From the NCBI RefSeq assembly GCF_030270585.1, contig NZ_BSYI01000051.1, positions 1 through 39,198 of the forward strand: a stretch of 39,198 nt of DNA. The letters run 5' to 3'. Under the pieces are notes generated by a model. The model worked only from the letters and a program-made list of their open reading frames with translations, had not been told where the DNA came from and ran no database searches. Below, piece after piece: positions 31,514 through 39,054 of the stretch. The translations under genes and the position numbers were made by a program. This DNA is from Paralimibaculum aggregatum. Its GTDB lineage: Bacteria; Pseudomonadota; Alphaproteobacteria; Rhodobacterales; Rhodobacteraceae. Numbering within the stretch: position 1 is the stretch's first letter; each line of letters opens with the position of its first letter.

Positions 31514-33385
31514 CTAGTCGCGCCCGGGGGCGCTGGCCGGCGATGACCGGGATGCGAGCCGGCGTGCCGCCAGATATCCCGCCATCGTCGTTTCCACGAT
31601 CGCTTCGGTTGCGCCGTGGCGGCGCATGAAGTCCGCCGGGTCCGCCGCCAGGGACGGATAGCCGGAGAGCGCGTCCAGCGCCGATGCCGCCTTCTGCGCA
31701 TCGCCGAGCGTGCCGGCTGCGGATGCCACCAGGAACTGGCCGAAACCGGAGCCCCGTGCCACCGCCTGCTCGGCAGTCGCCAGCATCCGCCGGGGGTCGC
31801 CCTCCATCAGATGCCGTATCGCGAGCATATGATAGTACCACCCGGGCGGGTTGATCGTGCGCTCGATCGCGCGTTCCATCAGCCGCGTGCCCTCGTCGAA
31901 CTTGCCGCGGGCCGCGAGCCGCCAGCCGACCTGCGCGAGCGTGTCGGGGTCGTGCGGGTTGCGGCTCAGCGCCTCCCGCCCAAGGCGCTCGCCAATCTCG
32001 TAGTTCCCGATATGGTGATGGATGGAGGCCAGCGCCTTCAGCGCCAGCACGCTGCCCGGTGCGAGGGCGAGCGCGCGTTCGGCCGAGGCCAGGGCGGCCG
32101 CGTATTCCGCCGCGCGTCGGTCCGGCGGCACGAAATGGTAGCGGGCGGCGTCGAGCTGCAGCCAGCCGAGCATGGCCCAGGCGTCGCTGTATTCGGGGTT
32201 TCTTACCACGGCGGCATCGAGGCAGGCGCGCACCGGCACGGCCTCTTCGACCGAGAAGTGCCGGCGGTAGGCATGGGCCCGCATGACGCAGAAGTAGCTC
32301 TCGAGGCTCGACAGGGTCGATCCGGTGCCCTGCTGGCGGATATCGTCGTTGAGCGGGCCATAGGGCTGGCCGATGGCGGTCGCGATCTCCGCGGAGAGCG
32401 TGTCGCGCAGGGCCATGATCGCGCCCGGCGCAAGCTGCAGGTCATAGGCCTCGCCCCAGACGATCTCGTCGGTGCGGGCCACGACGAGCTGGACATGCAC
32501 CGAGGCACGCTCGTGCTCCGTCAGCACGACGCCACGCAGGATATAGGCCGGAACCGGGCTGCCGCGGAAATCGGCGAGCGTCTGCTCGAGATCGCCCGGC
32601 GCCACGGGAGAATAGAGCCGCAGGCCCTGGAAGCGGCTGAGGTTCAGGATCAGCTCGGAGCTCAGTCCGGCGGAGAGCAGGAGGTTCGTCTCCGAGGGGC
32701 CGAGGGCCTTGAAGGGCAGGATGGCGATCCTAGGCAGGGCCTCCGCAGGCTGGCCTTCGGGCGGAGATGCTTGGTCCAGGAAGGCGGCAAGCAGGCCGGC
32801 CGCGACGAGCAGGGCGGCCGCGATGGCGGCGCTCACCCGCAGCCATCCGTGCCCGCGGCCGCGGCGCGCCTGGCGGGCCGGCGGCGGAATTCTCCCCGGT
32901 TCCGCGATCTCGTCCGGGGCTGCCGGCCCGGACTCCGGCTCGGCTGCGGCCCCGCGTGCTTCGAACAGCGGCACGTAGCCGCCGCGCGGGATCGAGATGC
33001 GGACGGGATCGCCGGCGCCCGGGCCGACATAGTAGCTGTCGAGATCCCGGCGCAGGCGCCGCGCCTCGAGCCGCACCACGGGGTCGGTCTTCGGATCGAA
33101 CGTCTCGTCCCGCCCGAACACGGCATTGGCGATCGTGAAGCCCTTGAGCTCGCGCGCGCGCCCGGCGAGCCTTTCCTCGACGATGAAGTGCAGGAATGCC
33201 CGGCGCCGCTCGGTCGCCGTGAATTCCGGGTTCGTCATCAGCCGTGTGAGGGCGGTCCGTATCTCGTCGTCGGACGGCCCTGCGGCGGCTGCGCCACGCG
33301 GCGCTCTGCTTTCTGCTGTGCTGGTCAAGGGCGGTTCCGCCGAAGTGCTGTTCCAACGGAAACCCCGGGCGAACTTTCCGGCCAC
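31514..33385 (-). CDS. Membrane-anchored winged-helix-like/TolB-N/TPR regulator (adenylate-cyclase-annotated type)
   Basis: The 623-residue protein has an N-terminal cytoplasmic domain (about residues 38-140: TRLMTNPEFTATERRRAFLHFIVEE, LKGFTIANAVFGRD, FDPKTDPVVRLEARRLRRDL, ISIPRGGYVPLF) seen on many alphaproteobacterial proteins annotated as adenylate cyclase or TPR proteins. A single membrane helix follows (SAAIAAALLVAAGLLAAFL). The outer part has a TolB-N-like domain (RIAILPFKALG) and TPR-type helical repeats to the end. This resembles CadC-style one-component sensors. GTG 33385 follows AAAAAGGGAG. It is divergent from the sulfatase cluster with a perfect palindrome between, so it probably controls it. 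No cyclase catalytic domain is present. Confidence 0.75.
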   Translation of the reverse strand: MAGKFARGFRWNSTSAEPPLTSTAESRAPRGAAAAGPSDDEIRTALTRLMTNPEFTATERRRAFLHFIVEERLAGRARELKGFTIANAVFGRDETFDPKTDPVVRLEARRLRRDLDSYYVGPGAGDPVRISIPRGGYVPLFEARGAAAEPESGPAAPDEIAEPGRIPPPARQARRGRGHGWLRVSAAIAAALLVAAGLLAAFLDQASPPEGQPAEALPRIAILPFKALGPSETNLLLSAGLSSELILNLSRFQGLRLYSPVAPGDLEQTLADFRGSPVPAYILRGVVLTEHERASVHVQLVVARTDEIVWGEAYDLQLAPGAIMALRDTLSAEIATAIGQPYGPLNDDIRQQGTGSTLSSLESYFCVMRAHAYRRHFSVEEAVPVRACLDAAVVRNPEYSDAWAMLGWLQLDAARYHFVPPDRRAAEYAAALASAERALALAPGSVLALKALASIHHHIGNYEIGERLGREALSRNPHDPDTLAQVGWRLAARGKFDEGTRLMERAIERTINPPGWYYHMLAIRHLMEGDPRRMLATAEQAVARGSGFGQFLVASAAGTLGDAQKAASALDALSGYPSLAADPADFMRRHGATEAIVETTMAGYLAARRLASRSSPASAPGRD

Positions 33386-33602: not shown

Positions 33603-33839
33603 ATGGAACCTTGGTCGATCATCGCAAAACGCTGGCCGGACCGGAACCTCGAGATCCGGCGGCGCTGCGCTGTCGACGCGGACTACCGCTCGATCGTCTC
33701 CGACTATGTCGAAGCGCGATCCGCCCTGGACCGCTGGCGCCGGTCCGATCCGGCCGGCTCGGGGAGGGTTGCCGACTACGAACGGCTCGTTCGCGAACTC
33801 GACGCGGAGATCGAACGGAGCTTCGTCACCCACGACTGA
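33603..33839 (+). CDS. Small conserved-looking cytoplasmic protein, function unknown
   Basis: This 78-residue product is mostly helical and charged, reading WSIIAKRWPDRNLEIRRRC, DADYRSIVSDYVEARSAL and YERLVRELDAEIERSF. Such short coiled-coil-prone proteins with a DxDYR...DY.EA...L.RW pattern occur widely in proteobacteria without a known role. ATG 33603 has GGAG eight bases upstream. It stands 69 bp before the sulfatase gene on the same strand, separated by a hairpin. I do not recognise a function. Confidence 0.6.
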   Translation: MEPWSIIAKRWPDRNLEIRRRCAVDADYRSIVSDYVEARSALDRWRRSDPAGSGRVADYERLVRELDAEIERSFVTHD

Positions 33840-33857
33840 CACCTTCCGACATGGCCG

Positions 33858-33876
33858 CCGCCCCGCCGGGGCGGCC
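33858..33876 (+). terminator. GC-rich hairpin between the small gene and the sulfatase gene
   Basis: GCCGCCCC (33858-33865) and GGGGCGGC (33869-33876) form a perfect 8-bp stem with a GCC loop, followed by CGGCCCCTTCTC. It could terminate the small gene's transcript or act as a 5' stabiliser for the sulfatase message. No T-run is present. Confidence 0.4.
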
Positions 33877-33908
33877 GGCCCCTTCTCACCGACCAGAGAG
33901 AGAGTGAT

Positions 33909-35579
33909 ATGAGATATATTCGACCCTTTACCGCACCGGCAGGGCGAACCCTCGCAATCGGCCTCGCCGTCCTCGCCTGCAGCTTCGCCGCGTCGCAGTC
34001 CGAGGCGCAGGCCGCCGGCGGCAAGCCCAACATCCTTCTCATCGTGTCGGACGACACCGGCTGGGGTGATCTCGGCCCCTATCTCGGTGGCGAGGCGCGG
34101 GGCATGCCGACGCCCCATTTCGACGAACTCGCCGCGGAGGGAATGTTCTTCACGAACTTCTACGGCCAGCCGAGCTGCACCCCCGGGCGCGCGGCGATGC
34201 AGACCGGGCGCATTCCCAACCGTTCGGGCATGACCACCGTGGCCTTCCAGGGCCAGGGCGGCGGCCTGCCGGCGGCGGAATGGACCCTCGCATCGGTGCT
34301 GAAGGAGGCCGGCTACAAGACCTACTTCACCGGCAAGTGGCACCTGGGCGAGAGCGACTACGCGCTGCCGAACGCGCAGGGCTACGACGTGATGAAGCAC
34401 GCCTTCCTCTATCACCTCAACGCCTATACCTACGCCGACCCGGCCTGGCACCGGAACATGAGCAAGGAACTTCGCGAGATGTTCGTGAAGGTCACCACCG
34501 GCTCGCTCTCCGGCCTGGCCGGCGAAACCGCGAAGGAGGACTTCAAGGTTCTCGGCGACGCCGACACGCCCGAAGACGGCAAGGTGGGCATCAAGTACCT
34601 CGACGGCTATGTGCAGGACACCGCATACGAGTTCCTCGAGGACGCGGCGAAGGACCCGGACACGCCGTTCTTCATCAACGTCAACTTCATGAAGAACCAC
34701 CAGCCGAACCTGCCGCATCCCGACTTCGTCGGCAGCTCCATCTCGAATTCGGACTATGCCGACTCCGTCGTCGAGCTTGACACGCGCATCGGCAACGTCC
34801 TGCAGAAGCTCGAGGATCTCGGCCTCGCCGACAACACCCTCGTGGTCTACACCGTCGACAACGGCGCCTGGCAGGATGTCTACCCGGATTCGGGCTACAC
34901 CCCCTTCCGCAGCACCAAGGGCACCGTCCGCGAGGGTGGCAGCCGCGTGCCCGCCATCGTGCGCTGGCCCGGCAAGGTCTCGCCCGGAACCCGGAGCGAC
35001 GCCATCGTCGGCGGTCTCGACCTGATGGCCACCTTCGCCTCGGCTGCCGGCATCGACCTGCCGACCGAGGACCGTGAGGGCCAGCCGATCGTCTTCGACA
35101 GCTATGACATGACCCCGGTGCTGACCGGCTCGGGCGAGTCGGAGCGCAAGGACTGGTTCTTTTTCACCGAAGACGAACTGACCCCCGGCGCGGTGCGGGT
35201 CGGCAACTTCAAGTACGTCTTCAACCTGCGCGGCGACGACGGCGCGCAGACCGGCGGCCTCGCCGTCGACACCAACCTCGGCTGGAAGGGTGCGGAGAGC
35301 TACATCGCCACCGTTCCCCAGGTGTTCGACCTCCTGGCCGATCCGCAGGAGCGCTACGACATCTTCATGACCACCTTCACCGAGAGCACTTGGGCGATGG
35401 TTCCGGCAAATGAAGCGGTGAAGAAGAAGATGCAGTCCTACATCAAGTATCCGCCGCGCAAGCTGCAGAGCGAGACCTATTCGGGACCGATCACTCTGAC
35501 CCGGTACCAGCGGTTCAAATACGTTCGCGACGCGCTGGAGAAAGACGGCATCAGCATCGGCCTGCCGAGCGGCAACTGA
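33909..35579 (+). CDS. Secreted formylglycine-type sulfatase (arylsulfatase)
   Basis: The 556-residue protein has a signal peptide (about residues 13-36, ending SEAQAAG). The alkaline-phosphatase-fold sulfatase motifs follow: NILLIVSDDTGWGDLG with metal ligands D48 and D49, then SCTPGRAAMQTGR, the C-x-P-x-R signature whose C90 becomes formylglycine, and FTGKWHLGE. Later come FINVNFMKNHQP, VVYTVDNGA and STKGTVREGGSRVPAIVRWPG, which hold further metal and sulfate-binding residues. It removes sulfate from an organic sulfate ester in the periplasm. It leads a cluster with a secreted phosphatase and a multihaem cytochrome. No formylglycine-generating enzyme is in the window. A GAGAGAGAG tract serves as ribosome site before ATG 33909. 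Confidence 0.93.
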   Translation: MRYIRPFTAPAGRTLAIGLAVLACSFAASQSEAQAAGGKPNILLIVSDDTGWGDLGPYLGGEARGMPTPHFDELAAEGMFFTNFYGQPSCTPGRAAMQTGRIPNRSGMTTVAFQGQGGGLPAAEWTLASVLKEAGYKTYFTGKWHLGESDYALPNAQGYDVMKHAFLYHLNAYTYADPAWHRNMSKELREMFVKVTTGSLSGLAGETAKEDFKVLGDADTPEDGKVGIKYLDGYVQDTAYEFLEDAAKDPDTPFFINVNFMKNHQPNLPHPDFVGSSISNSDYADSVVELDTRIGNVLQKLEDLGLADNTLVVYTVDNGAWQDVYPDSGYTPFRSTKGTVREGGSRVPAIVRWPGKVSPGTRSDAIVGGLDLMATFASAAGIDLPTEDREGQPIVFDSYDMTPVLTGSGESERKDWFFFTEDELTPGAVRVGNFKYVFNLRGDDGAQTGGLAVDTNLGWKGAESYIATVPQVFDLLADPQERYDIFMTTFTESTWAMVPANEAVKKKMQSYIKYPPRKLQSETYSGPITLTRYQRFKYVRDALEKDGISIGLPSGN

Positions 35580-35594
35580 TGCACCCTTGCCACC

Positions 35595-35618
35595 GGACGG
35601 GCCCCTGCGGGCCCGTCC
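35595..35618 (+). terminator. Strong hairpin after the sulfatase gene
   Basis: GGACGGGCCC (35595-35604) and GGGCCCGTCC (35609-35618) form a perfect 10-bp stem with a CTGC loop, followed by TCATTCTCCC. It lies in the 77-bp gap before the HAD phosphatase gene and may partly terminate, giving more sulfatase than downstream transcript. Confidence 0.6.
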
Positions 35619-35656
35619 TCATTCTCCCGGACCGTATCCGAAGAGGCTTGTCGACC

Positions 35657-36637
35657 ATGAAATGGCCTATCTCCATCGCCTTCGCCGCCGCCCTTGCTAT
35701 GGGCTCCACCGCCCTTGCCAAGGATGATCCGCTGCCTTCCTGGAACGACGGCCCGGCCAAGGCGGCCGTTCTGGCCTTCGTGCAGGCGGTGACGACCGAA
35801 GGCACCTCCAACTTCGCGCCCGTCGAGAAGCGCATCGCCGTCTTCGACAATGACGGCACGCTCTGGGCCGAGAAACCGGTCTACGTCCAGCTCCTGTTCG
35901 CGGTCGATCGCGTCAAGGCGCTGGCCCCGAAGCACCCCGAATGGAAGACGAACGAGCCCTTCGCCTCGATCCTGAAGGGCGATCTCAAGGGCGCGCTGGC
36001 CGGCGGCAAGCATGCGGTGGCCGAGATCGTCGCCGCGAGCCATGCCGGCATCACCACCGAGGAGTTCACTGCCGTGGTCCGCGACTGGATCGCGACCGCC
36101 CGGCACCCGGAGACCGGCCGGCTCTACACCGAGATGGTCTACCAGCCGATGCTGGAGCTGCTCGACCATCTGCGCGCCAACGATTTCGAGACCTTCATCG
36201 TCTCGGGCGGCGGCGTCGACTTCATGCGGGTCTTCGCCGAGTCGGTCTACGGCATCCCGCCGCACCAGGTGATGGGCAGCTCGATGAAGGTGAAGTTCGA
36301 GACCGTCGACGGCCTGCCGGCGCTGGTCAAGCAGCCCGAGCTGAATTTCGTCGATGACGGGCCGGGCAAGCCGGTCGGCATCCAGATGCAGATCGGCCGA
36401 AAGCCGATCGCCGCCTTCGGCAATTCGGACGGCGATCTGGAGATGCTGCAATACACCTGCCTGCCGCCGGGGCCGGATTTCTGCCTCTATGTCCACCATA
36501 CCGACGCCGAGCGGGAATGGGCCTATGACCGGGATTCCGCCGTCGGCAAGCTCGACAAGGGGCTCGATGCCGCGGCCGCAAACGGCTGGACCGTGGTGGA
36601 CATGGCAAAGGACTGGAGCGTCGTCTTCCCGGAATGA
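35657..36637 (+). CDS. Secreted HAD-superfamily phosphatase
   Basis: The 326-residue protein has a signal peptide (MKWPISIAFAAALAMGSTALA, cleaved before KDD). HAD motif I is VFDNDGTLW with D64 and D66, motif II is IVSGGG (serine), and motifs III/IV are seen around FGNSDGDLEML. This is the phosphoserine-phosphatase-like class with a helical cap between motifs I and II. Secreted HAD enzymes of this kind are often found next to sulfatases, but their substrate is unknown. ATG 35657 follows AGAGGC at a long spacing. The neighbour set suggests processing of a sulfated or phosphorylated organic compound outside the cytoplasm. Confidence 0.85.
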   Translation: MKWPISIAFAAALAMGSTALAKDDPLPSWNDGPAKAAVLAFVQAVTTEGTSNFAPVEKRIAVFDNDGTLWAEKPVYVQLLFAVDRVKALAPKHPEWKTNEPFASILKGDLKGALAGGKHAVAEIVAASHAGITTEEFTAVVRDWIATARHPETGRLYTEMVYQPMLELLDHLRANDFETFIVSGGGVDFMRVFAESVYGIPPHQVMGSSMKVKFETVDGLPALVKQPELNFVDDGPGKPVGIQMQIGRKPIAAFGNSDGDLEMLQYTCLPPGPDFCLYVHHTDAEREWAYDRDSAVGKLDKGLDAAAANGWTVVDMAKDWSVVFPE

Positions 36638-36739
36638 AGGAGCCGGCAGCGTCGCAGCTGCCGCTGGCCTCCCGGGCGGTTTCAAGCGACAATGCATCTG
36701 CGGTGCACGACCTGCACCGACTTCCGGAAAGGCTCCAGA

Positions 36740-37066
36740 ATGAAAATGTCATTGCGCTTCGTTCGCATTTTCGCATTCGGGCTGCTGATGCTCGGCCCGG
36801 CCAAGGCCGACGAGATCGATATCGGCGGGTACCCGCTGGTTCTCGTCTGCGATGTCGGGAACGTGCTGCTCGTCGGCTATCTCAGCGAGATCGGCAAGGA
36901 GGGCGGTGCCGTCTACATCTCGGCAAACGGGCGCCAGTCCATCGTGATCGGCACCGACGGCATGCTCTACCCGACCGAGACGATGCGGGCGGAGGGGTCC
37001 TGCGCGGGCCGCTCGCTCGCCGAACTCAAGGCCGATGGCCGCGCCTTCATGGTCCTGCGGCCGTGA
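36740..37066 (+). CDS. Small secreted protein of unknown function
   Basis: This 108-residue product has a signal peptide (MKMSLRFVRIFAFGLLMLGPAKA). The mature part of about 85 residues is beta-rich (GGYPLVLVCDVGNVLLVGYL, GAVYISANG, SIVIGTDGMLYP) with two cysteines, likely disulfide-bonded. I recognise no family. ATG 36740 is chosen over 36692 because GGAAAGG precedes it and the signal then starts directly. Its stop overlaps the cytochrome GTG (GTGA), so the two are translationally coupled, suggesting a working partnership with the cytochrome. Confidence 0.7.
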   Translation: MKMSLRFVRIFAFGLLMLGPAKADEIDIGGYPLVLVCDVGNVLLVGYLSEIGKEGGAVYISANGRQSIVIGTDGMLYPTETMRAEGSCAGRSLAELKADGRAFMVLRP

Positions 37067-39054
37067 GCCGGTCCGCCCCGGAGCAATCCGGCGCAGCGGC
37101 GCCCCGTTTCGGGACCGCCGGCCTGTATCGGGCTCCGGGGCGGCTCGTCGCCATCCTCTTCGCGATGGCGATCGCCGGGCCGGCCGTGGCGGCGGAGCCC
37201 GCCTATGTCGGCTCGGCGGCCTGCACGGATTGCCACGAGGCGGAGGCGGCCGCCTGGGCCGGCTCGCATCACGCGCTGGCCTGGACCGAGGCGACGCCCG
37301 CCAATGTTCTCGCCGATTTCGACGGAACCCGCTTTTCGCATGACGGCGTTGACTACCGCTTCCGGCTCGAGGCGGGCGGCCATTTCGTCACGGTGACCGA
37401 GGCGGACGGGACCGCGACCGACCACCGCATCCATTCCGTCGCCGGCGTGGCGCCGCTCCAGCAATACCTGATCGAGACCGAGCCCGGCCGGATCCAGAGC
37501 TTCGACGTGGTCTGGGATGTCGTGCGCGGCCGCTGGTATCACCTCTATCCGGACCAGCACCTGCCGCCCGGCGACGGCCTGCACTGGACCGGGCCCTACA
37601 AGACCTGGAATGCCCGCTGCGCCGAGTGCCACGCGACCGGCTTCGAAAAGAACTACGATCGGCGGACGGGGCGCTATGCCTCGGTTCAGGCGGAGATCGG
37701 CGTCGGCTGCGAGGCCTGCCATGGCCCCGGAGAGGCCCATCTCGACTGGGCGGCGGGGCGCCCGCCGAACCCGGCCTTCGCCGCGCTGGGCGCCCTCGGC
37801 CTGACGATGCGCTTCGGCGAGGCCGAGGCGACGATCCAGCAATGCGCCGGCTGCCATTCCCGCCGCGAGGCGCATGGCGACGGCAACCCGCTGCCGGGCA
37901 CGCCCTATCACGACGCCTACAACATGGCGCAGCTTCGGCGGGGCCTCTACCACGCCGATGGTCAGATCCTCGACGAGGTCTATGTCTACGGCTCGTTCCT
38001 GCAGTCGAAGATGTATGCCCGCGGCGTCAGCTGCCTGGACTGTCACGACGCCCATGACGCGACGCTCCGCGCCGAGGGCAATGCGGTCTGCACCCAGTGC
38101 CACGGCCCGTCCGGCAACCCGGCCTTCCCGACGCTGCGCCAGGCCGACTACGACAGCCCCGCGCACCACTTCCACGAGACCGGCACCCCGGGCGCGCAAT
38201 GTGCGAGCTGCCACATGACCGAGCGGGCCTACATGGGCATCGACTTGCGGCGCGACCACAGCTTCCGCATCCCCCGGCCCGATCTCGCATCGGAGACCGG
38301 TGCGCCCGACGCCTGCACCGGCTGCCATGCCGACCGCGACGCCGCATGGGCCGCCGCGCAGGTCGAGGCGTGGTATCCGGCCGGCACCCACCGCCGTGCA
38401 CATTTCGGCGAGGCGTTCGCGGCCGGCAGGCTCGACCCGCGATCGGCGGGCAACGATCTCCTGGCCGTGGCGAGCGATCCGGCACAGGCCGGCATCGTCC
38501 GCGCGACCGCCCTCTGGCTCCTCGAAACCGCGGGCGCCCCCGGCTTCGCCGAGCGGACCGCCGCGCTCGTCGCCGATCCCGACCCGCTGGTCCGTGCCGC
38601 CGCCGTGGGCCTGCAGCGTGCCGCCCCGCCCCGCGCCAGGGTGGACCGCGTGAGCCCGGCGCTCTCCGACCCGGTGCGCAGCGTGCGCATCGCCGCGGCG
38701 CGCGCCCTGATCGGGATGCCGGCCGCCGCGGTCTCCGGGCCGGTGGCCGGGGACCTGCGGCGCGCGCGCGGCGACTGGCAGGCCTCCCTGTCGAACCGGT
38801 TCGATTTCCCGGAGACGCATCTCCAGCTTGCCGGGATGGCGCTCACCTCGCGCAACCTGCCGGCGGCGAACGCGGCCTTCCGCGAAGCGGTGCGCATGGA
38901 TCCGCAGCGCGTCGACGCCTGGTCGATGATCGTCCGGATCGAGGCGGCGACACGCGGGCCGGCCGCCGCCGCCGCCGCGCTGGACGAGGCGCTGGCGCTC
39001 AACCCCGGTGACGCAACGCTGCGTGCCCTCGGCGAGGCGTTGCAGGCGCGTTAG
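37063..39054 (+). CDS. Secreted octahaem cytochrome c with C-terminal helical-repeat domain
   Basis: The 663-residue protein has a signal segment (VAILFAMAIAGPAVAA) and eight CxxCH haem motifs: CTDCH (about residue 54), CAECH (186), CEACH (216), CAGCH (261), CLDCH (324), CTQCH (343), CASCH (380) and CTGCH (418). The spacing is like large multihaem cytochromes of the cytochrome c554/nitrite-reductase-like superclass, but no CxxCK motif is present. Residues from about 440 to the end form HEAT-like (VADPDPLVRAAAVGL, LSDPVRSVRIAAARALIG) and TPR-like repeats (AANAAFREAVRMDPQRVDAW). It starts at GTG 37063 overlapping the previous stop. It probably carries electrons in the periplasm; its redox partner or substrate is unknown. 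Confidence 0.9.
   Translation: MSRSAPEQSGAAAPRFGTAGLYRAPGRLVAILFAMAIAGPAVAAEPAYVGSAACTDCHEAEAAAWAGSHHALAWTEATPANVLADFDGTRFSHDGVDYRFRLEAGGHFVTVTEADGTATDHRIHSVAGVAPLQQYLIETEPGRIQSFDVVWDVVRGRWYHLYPDQHLPPGDGLHWTGPYKTWNARCAECHATGFEKNYDRRTGRYASVQAEIGVGCEACHGPGEAHLDWAAGRPPNPAFAALGALGLTMRFGEAEATIQQCAGCHSRREAHGDGNPLPGTPYHDAYNMAQLRRGLYHADGQILDEVYVYGSFLQSKMYARGVSCLDCHDAHDATLRAEGNAVCTQCHGPSGNPAFPTLRQADYDSPAHHFHETGTPGAQCASCHMTERAYMGIDLRRDHSFRIPRPDLASETGAPDACTGCHADRDAAWAAAQVEAWYPAGTHRRAHFGEAFAAGRLDPRSAGNDLLAVASDPAQAGIVRATALWLLETAGAPGFAERTAALVADPDPLVRAAAVGLQRAAPPRARVDRVSPALSDPVRSVRIAAARALIGMPAAAVSGPVAGDLRRARGDWQASLSNRFDFPETHLQLAGMALTSRNLPAANAAFREAVRMDPQRVDAWSMIVRIEAATRGPAAAAAALDEALALNPGDATLRALGEALQAR

Follow-up and report, generated by a model that had tools for sequence, protein, structure and literature searches.

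The DNA considered here, a stretch of 39,198 nucleotides referred to below as the window, corresponds to the complete contig C51 (NZ_BSYI01000051.1) of Paralimibaculum aggregatum, a member of the Rhodobacteraceae. Close to its right-hand end, four genes on the + strand (33909-39054) encode a Cys-type S1 sulfatase, an exported HAD phosphatase, a small secreted protein and an octahaem cytochrome. We propose that the octahaem cytochrome is the activating factor of the exported sulfatase, probably oxidising its active-site cysteine to formylglycine in the periplasm, and put the probability of this reading, which rests on sequence comparison, at about 0.55. Sulfatase activation fits better than respiration of a substrate, because in related operons the cytochrome is replaced by FGE or anSME, two unrelated enzymes that share the task of making formylglycine.

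Exchange with known maturation enzymes

FGE (PF03781, with a copper site) uses copper and oxygen; it carries no haem and is unrelated to the cytochrome. anSME (TIGR03942) is a cytoplasmic radical-SAM enzyme. Two close classes of sulfatase accompany the HAD phosphatase: class B, which includes the window enzyme with its CTPGR motif, and class A, mostly with CTAGR. Among class B operons, the order sulfatase-HAD-cytochrome is found in Roseibium, Rhizobium and Sinorhizobium meliloti, and the window has the same order with the small gene in between. In Paraburkholderia, the sulfatase (69% identity) and HAD genes are followed by anSME, at the identical position to the cytochrome. Class A is represented in Alloyangia by the order sulfatase-HAD-MoxR-DUF58-DUF4381-VWA-VWA-hypothetical protein (with a BatD match)-cytochrome, and in Rhizobium leguminosarum WSM1325, Agrobacterium tumefaciens and Rhizobium tumorigenes by sulfatase-MoxR-DUF58-DUF4381-VWA-VWA-BatD-FGE-HAD. 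FGE thus follows BatD at the identical gene position to the Alloyangia cytochrome, the second of two such arrangements, and is predicted to do the same job. The same operon may also carry its maturase at another position, as in Rahnella and Pantoea, which have anSME directly after the sulfatase (sulfatase-anSME-MoxR-DUF58-DUF4381-VWA, continued in Pantoea by VWA-oxygen tolerance protein-HAD), in Methylobacterium (FGE-sulfatase-HAD) and in Pseudochrobactrum (FGE-sulfatase). In Cupriavidus, the FGE gene lies about 5.5 kb away on the opposite strand.

Sixteen sulfatase-anchored plasmid loci, picked for variety and mostly by annotation from 120 rows listed (208 and 133 records), contain FGE in six cases, anSME in three and the cytochrome in one, with none of these in view in the other six. 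A tally of 69 loci with a close sulfatase, using tblastn thresholds of 120 bits for the cytochrome, 150 for FGE and 120 for anSME, gave 45 with the cytochrome only, 11 with FGE only, three with anSME only and 10 with none. Loci of this kind mostly have the HAD gene as well, and often the MoxR-DUF58-vWA-BatD cassette. Not one of the 69 shows more than one of the three in the stretches of 3.9 to 25 kb that were covered. L163, a copy of L161, is outside this tally and L050 was left out as a copy of L036, while L152, a second S. meliloti locus, is in the tally and not in the trees.

On a tree of 66 sulfatase sequences, 55 of them labelled by their maturase (L083 and two long-branch rows were left out), the three labels need at least nine changes, which argues for repeated exchange of cytochrome, FGE and anSME. 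The well-supported branches alone force seven changes for the cytochrome. CTAGR, which is the most frequent motif at cytochrome loci, is also that of the FGE-linked sulfatases of genomes G324, G370, G280 and G144, and three FGEs beside these sulfatases (L158, L166 and L167) have a signal-like N-terminus by eye, which suggests that they may be exported. We consider it probable that the cytochrome is equivalent to FGE.

A cassette of the MoxR-DUF58-DUF4381-VWA-VWA-BatD type accompanies sulfatases with cytochrome, FGE or anSME alike (L235, L237, L238, L239, L252, L035, L060 and L106). Its genes may form a set of chaperones for exported sulfatases, and not one for aerotolerance.

Association across genomes

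The association of cytochrome and sulfatase was followed in a family sample of 100 genomes, one per genus, which includes the window's own genome (sulfatase threshold, E up to 1e-40) and in which the choice of one genome per genus is the only correction for phylogeny. The cytochrome is strong in 16 of these genomes, the HAD phosphatase in 15 and the sulfatase in 17. A sulfatase relative is present in 15 of the 16 cytochrome genomes (Fisher p 8e-15) and the HAD phosphatase in 14 (Fisher p 4e-14). In a class-wide sample of 289 genomes, with the own genome left out and up to four candidates scored per genome, the sulfatase is found in five of nine cytochrome genomes (p 9e-6) and the HAD phosphatase in two (p 0.012). 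The family cytochrome set excludes G369 (54 bits), and the class set includes G140 (75 bits). Adjacency was counted by hand: in 13 of 21 cytochrome genomes, a PF00884 gene and the cytochrome are no more than 10 kb apart, against 0.83 expected, with the own genome, G007, G009 and G140 outside the 21. In G379 and G381, the sulfatase and HAD genes are on a different contig from the cytochrome, and since these genomes keep both genes though unlinked, the association is more than local hitch-hiking.

A sequence-only reading of the window had proposed a new exported system that joins a formylglycine-type sulfatase to an octahaem cytochrome, and this is borne out by co-occurrence and adjacency far beyond chance. 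Conservation of the module is near certain. The finding that would have spoken against that reading, a cytochrome gene occurring independently of the sulfatase in nearly all genomes, does not describe the family, and beyond the family the association is looser. The cytochrome is widespread, with at least 421 matching stretches in a scan of species genomes, and among 80 cytochrome loci from several phyla, a sulfatase relative (above 50 bits) is in view in 32 and the HAD phosphatase in 12. ORF clustering of 117 loci placed the sulfatase at 48 or more, the HAD phosphatase at 23 or more, and MoxR, DUF58, vWA and BatD clusters at a minimum of 13 to 17 each; these counts are lower bounds, because the ORF picking retained the cytochrome itself in only 105.

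The sulfatases that accompany the cytochrome are of several types, with CTAGR, CTPGR, CSPTR and other motifs, and all 54 that could be read (from 58 rows, the window among them) belong to the Cys type, C-x-[PAS]-x-R. Alanine takes the place of the usual proline in 32 of the 54 readable sulfatases at cytochrome loci L034-L151, 31 times as CTAGR. A motif search that requires proline misses 40 of 57 sulfatases, and it is alignment that reveals the alanine variant. In several Rhodobacterales (L048, L049, L072, L073 and L095), genes for an AI-2E family permease and a BrkB-like protein separate the cytochrome from the sulfatase or MoxR genes.

Maturases at the genome level

Real FGE can be told apart from other PF03781 proteins by a profile built on FGEs that have the copper-site Cys pair. 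By this measure, a copper-site FGE is present in eight of 10 sulfatase genomes without the cytochrome versus five of 23 with it, plus one fragment (Fisher 0.005). The two remaining cytochrome-free genomes are one with a truncated FGE and G147, which has none. In five of the 10 (G324, G370, G280, G148 and G144), FGE lies beside the sulfatase or HAD gene. For 50 further cytochrome genomes, the status was taken from the best PF03781 match per genome, of which 30 were read, four genomes had no match and 16 (at most 143 bits) were not read; real FGE was found at eight of the 30 loci read. anSME exceeds its cut-off in one of 61 genomes, which is also one of the 51 among them that have the cytochrome. 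As far as seen, cytochrome and FGE exclude each other within a locus but not within a genome. In G301, a sulfatase fragment adjoins the cytochrome (L055, 7728-8003), and an FGE fragment is found elsewhere in the genome.

The genome to which the window belongs, which is 98.7% complete, encodes four sulfatases, all of them Cys-type (CTPGR, CSPTR, CAPSR and CVPAR). It has no recognisable FGE: the best PF03781 match (99 bits) lacks the Cys pair, and the second (77 bits) was not read. No recognisable anSME was found in it either, the best TIGR03942 match reaching 22.8 bits against a cut-off of 349, although at this completeness a gap is possible. The same genome contains a decayed second copy of the cluster on contig C54 (L153, 35-4978), made up of a regulator paralogue, a C-terminal remnant of the sulfatase, a different small secreted ORF and a truncated HAD gene, followed by a relative of the Roseibium outer-membrane transporter and a further secreted ORF. 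The 20 kb read there contain no match to the cytochrome.

The cytochrome and a proposed mechanism

The candidate sulfatase-maturing protein is encoded on the + strand at 37063..39054, with a GTG start, and has 663 residues with eight CXXCH motifs. Its N-terminus is signal-like, the signal peptides of the cluster proteins being judged by eye only. Motif alignment and the predicted structure delimit a haem-binding domain at residues ~48-430 (37204..38352), in which the motifs start at residues 54, 186, 216, 261, 324, 343, 380 and 418; each of the eight is kept in 36 to 39 of 39 aligned cytochrome sequences, fragments included. It is followed by a domain of HEAT and TPR repeats at residues ~440-662 (38380..39048), all-helical in the model, with matches to HEAT_2, TPR_16, TPR_14 and others, most of them below cut-off. 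Repeats of this kind often bind protein.

The AlphaFold2 model has a mean pLDDT of 90.5. OcwA of Thermincola is the best match both by sequence (E 3.6e-13) and by fold in a Foldseek search (PDB 6i5b, E 1.7e-11, TM 0.40/0.54, rmsd 14.8). OcwA, which we take to be a nine-haem outer-wall terminal reductase without TPR, differs from the window cytochrome with its eight haem motifs and HEAT/TPR arm. Haem-pair motifs are held in common with the cytochrome c554, c7 and decahaem families (PF13435, PF14522, TIGR03508 and NF041028); the Pfam cut-offs of PF13435 and PF14522 are reached, with partial matches, and the NCBIfam cut-offs are not (NF041028, for instance, scores 44.6 bits where 325 are needed). 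At E 0.01, the cytochrome gives no hit to PF03781, and so has no FGE copper-site domain (GGSxLCxxxYC), and none to the radical-SAM family TIGR03942. Outside the haem motifs, six histidines are the same in all of 51 sequences, with two more kept in 48 and 46 of them. With at most eight strongly conserved candidates for the distal ligands, one or two haems may be open.

The cluster would then be an exported sulfatase module, in which the sulfatase would hydrolyse a sulfate ester and the HAD enzyme would probably take a phosphate off that substrate or one related to it. The cytochrome would stand outside the breakdown of the substrate and do the job that FGE or anSME does in relatives of the same operon. 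Proteins exported by Sec cross the membrane unfolded. The HEAT/TPR arm would hold the newly exported sulfatase, and the haem domain would take two electrons from the CTPGR cysteine to yield a thioaldehyde, which with water would give formylglycine; the electrons would pass along the haems to the respiratory chain. That the cytochrome itself catalyses the oxidation of the cysteine is a tentative part of this scheme, somewhat short of an even chance. We would give much the same odds to the reading in which the cytochrome founds a third class of formylglycine-generating enzymes: exported and haem-wired, this oxidase would act on the cysteine of CxPxR or CxAxR in exported sulfatases with no oxygen or S-adenosylmethionine at the site and deliver the electrons to respiration.

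Weighing the alternatives

A number of observations count against the cytochrome as activator of the sulfatase. Of 73 genomes with the cytochrome, at least 13 encode a copper-site FGE too, and a further one has an FGE fragment. In the model, the nearest fold appears to be that of OcwA, an outer-wall terminal reductase, and not that of a known thiol oxidase; the conserved histidines do not decide whether one of the haems offers an open site. Ten of the 69 sulfatase loci show no maturase, and the 45 loci with the cytochrome do not represent a frequency, because all but three either came up in searches with the cytochrome or represent the window. An FGE gene beyond the fetched stretch would be missed, as in L238 and L239 before these were extended. 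The maturase labels also cluster on the sulfatase tree, where none of 200 shuffles was as low. Beyond the family, 48 of the 80 wider cytochrome loci, some of them short, have no sulfatase relative above 50 bits in view. Finally, Escherichia coli activates Cys-type sulfatases by an unidentified route (PMC6189696), and the absence of FGE and anSME from a genome is therefore by itself no proof of activation by the cytochrome.

Among the other explanations, the one that survives best, which we nevertheless regard as unlikely, makes the cytochrome a respiratory partner that would oxidise or reduce a redox-active product, such as a phenol or a sulfur compound, freed by the sulfatase (and the HAD phosphatase). 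The sequence-only reading had suggested an idea of this kind, in which use of a sulfated compound would be redox-linked. Small substrates are commonly the targets of multihaem cytochromes, OcwA is the nearest fold, and a "transporter" gene follows the cytochrome in Roseibium. However, a respiratory role gives no reason for FGE or anSME to take the place of the cytochrome in the same operons, or for the cytochrome to be paired with several types of Cys-type sulfatase. A substrate-respiration module was rejected as the leading interpretation since it does not account for the FGE/anSME alternation, and the redox-linked proposal gives way with it.

Somewhat less likely still is an indirect role, in which the cytochrome would serve as an electron sink or thiol keeper for another maturase or for MoxR-vWA-BatD assembly factors. 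The MoxR-DUF58-vWA-BatD cassette is indeed common to the cytochrome, FGE and anSME versions of the operon, but it is missing from the stretches read of Roseibium, Rhizobium and S. meliloti, and the window up to its end, 144 bases past the cytochrome, has no match to MoxR, DUF58, BatA, BatB or BatD queries. Nor did any other gene show up as alternating with FGE and anSME, though the neighbour clustering was not set up to rule one out. The last alternative, an exported multihaem cytochrome of the ordinary kind that travels with sulfatase genes on plasmids and islands, with no functional link, would suit its relatives in 147 plasmid records and the 48 loci without a sulfatase relative, but is very improbable given the co-occurrence in 100 genomes (8e-15 for the sulfatase and 4e-14 for the HAD phosphatase, also when unlinked, with no further correction for phylogeny) and the adjacency (13 of 21 versus 0.83), the statistics by which a chance neighbourhood was rejected.

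The gene cluster in the window

The four genes lie where the sequence-only reading had put them, and its start at 33603 takes in a 78-codon ORF (33603..33839, + strand) directly 5' of the sulfatase gene. This ORF has relatives in seven plasmid records, and its best relative (40%) is found just upstream of the Sinorhizobium terangae sulfatase. The exported sulfatase (33909..35579, + strand) scores 165 bits against PF00884, where the curated cut-off is 25, and its closest solved structures in the PDB are arylsulfatases. Among the matches listed, it is 84.6% identical to the Roseibium protein and 68-72% to full-length sulfatases of Sinorhizobium, Rhizobium and Paraburkholderia. Formylglycine on its CTPGR is predicted from the modification motif C/S-x-P/A-x-R.

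Between the sulfatase and HAD genes, folding of a 61-base stretch gives an RNA hairpin without a U run (35595..35618, + strand; -27.5 kcal/mol, z -3.3), and a similar hairpin occurs in the decayed copy (z -2.9). It is perhaps a stabiliser of the mRNA or a processing site. The HAD phosphatase (35657..36637, + strand) belongs to PF12710 and is related over its full length to PDB 4ovy (402 bits over 304 residues). A longer form from 35579 is possible, in a TGATG overlap with the sulfatase stop, but the ATG at 35657, which gives a signal-like peptide, is the likelier start because the Roseibium relative aligns from that residue.

The small secreted protein has 108 residues from its most likely ATG start (36740..37066, + strand) and weak relatives in seven plasmid records. 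Its longer form (36692-37066) has no Pfam or NCBIfam match. The protein has no match above 50 bits in the 80 cytochrome loci, for which reason it was rejected as a core part, and none above 45 bits in a set of 38 loci. The overlap of its stop codon with the start of the cytochrome gene (GTGA, 37063-37066) is confirmed. The downstream end of the cluster is not visible because the contig stops 144 bases after the cytochrome.

Divergent from the cluster is a gene for a regulator-like protein (31514..33385, - strand) with an N-terminal region, one hydrophobic stretch (by eye) and TPR matches; its product is probably a one-component membrane regulator. In Roseibium (L037, 36%), S. terangae (L042, 43%), G379 (L159, 34%) and the decayed copy (L153, 43%), a related gene stands next to the sulfatase in divergent orientation.

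Known systems and significance

E. coli is not known to have this cytochrome, and the third maturation system proposed for it, which would likewise activate Cys-type sulfatases without the known enzymes, need not therefore be the same. Two formylglycine-making systems were known to a 2013 review (PMC3920027). A 2015 paper on the choline sulfatase of S. meliloti (PMC6189696) calls the E. coli machinery elusive and cites evidence from 2007 (Benjdia) for a third system; it also reports that this choline sulfatase stays unmodified in E. coli and that S. meliloti has a putative FGE. PMC2912261 names SMa1683 as an arylsulfatase; this is perhaps the S. meliloti relative, although the tag could not be tied to coordinates. 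An FGE-like domain is described in MoxR-vWA conflict systems, a different context, in PMC7159879. Across titles and abstract starts in the open PMC literature, with subscription papers outside the scope, there is no description of a cytochrome in sulfatase maturation, and the earlier statement that no described pathway is known to couple a formylglycine sulfatase with an octahaem cytochrome stands within the same limits.

If the proposal is correct, the octahaem cytochrome would be a candidate third sulfatase maturation system, with new chemistry for protein modification, and a new formylglycine tool for protein labelling could follow. It would account for the activation of Cys-type sulfatases in many bacteria that have neither FGE nor anSME. 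Sulfatase activity would be tied to respiration, and the prediction of sulfate-ester turnover from genomes would change.

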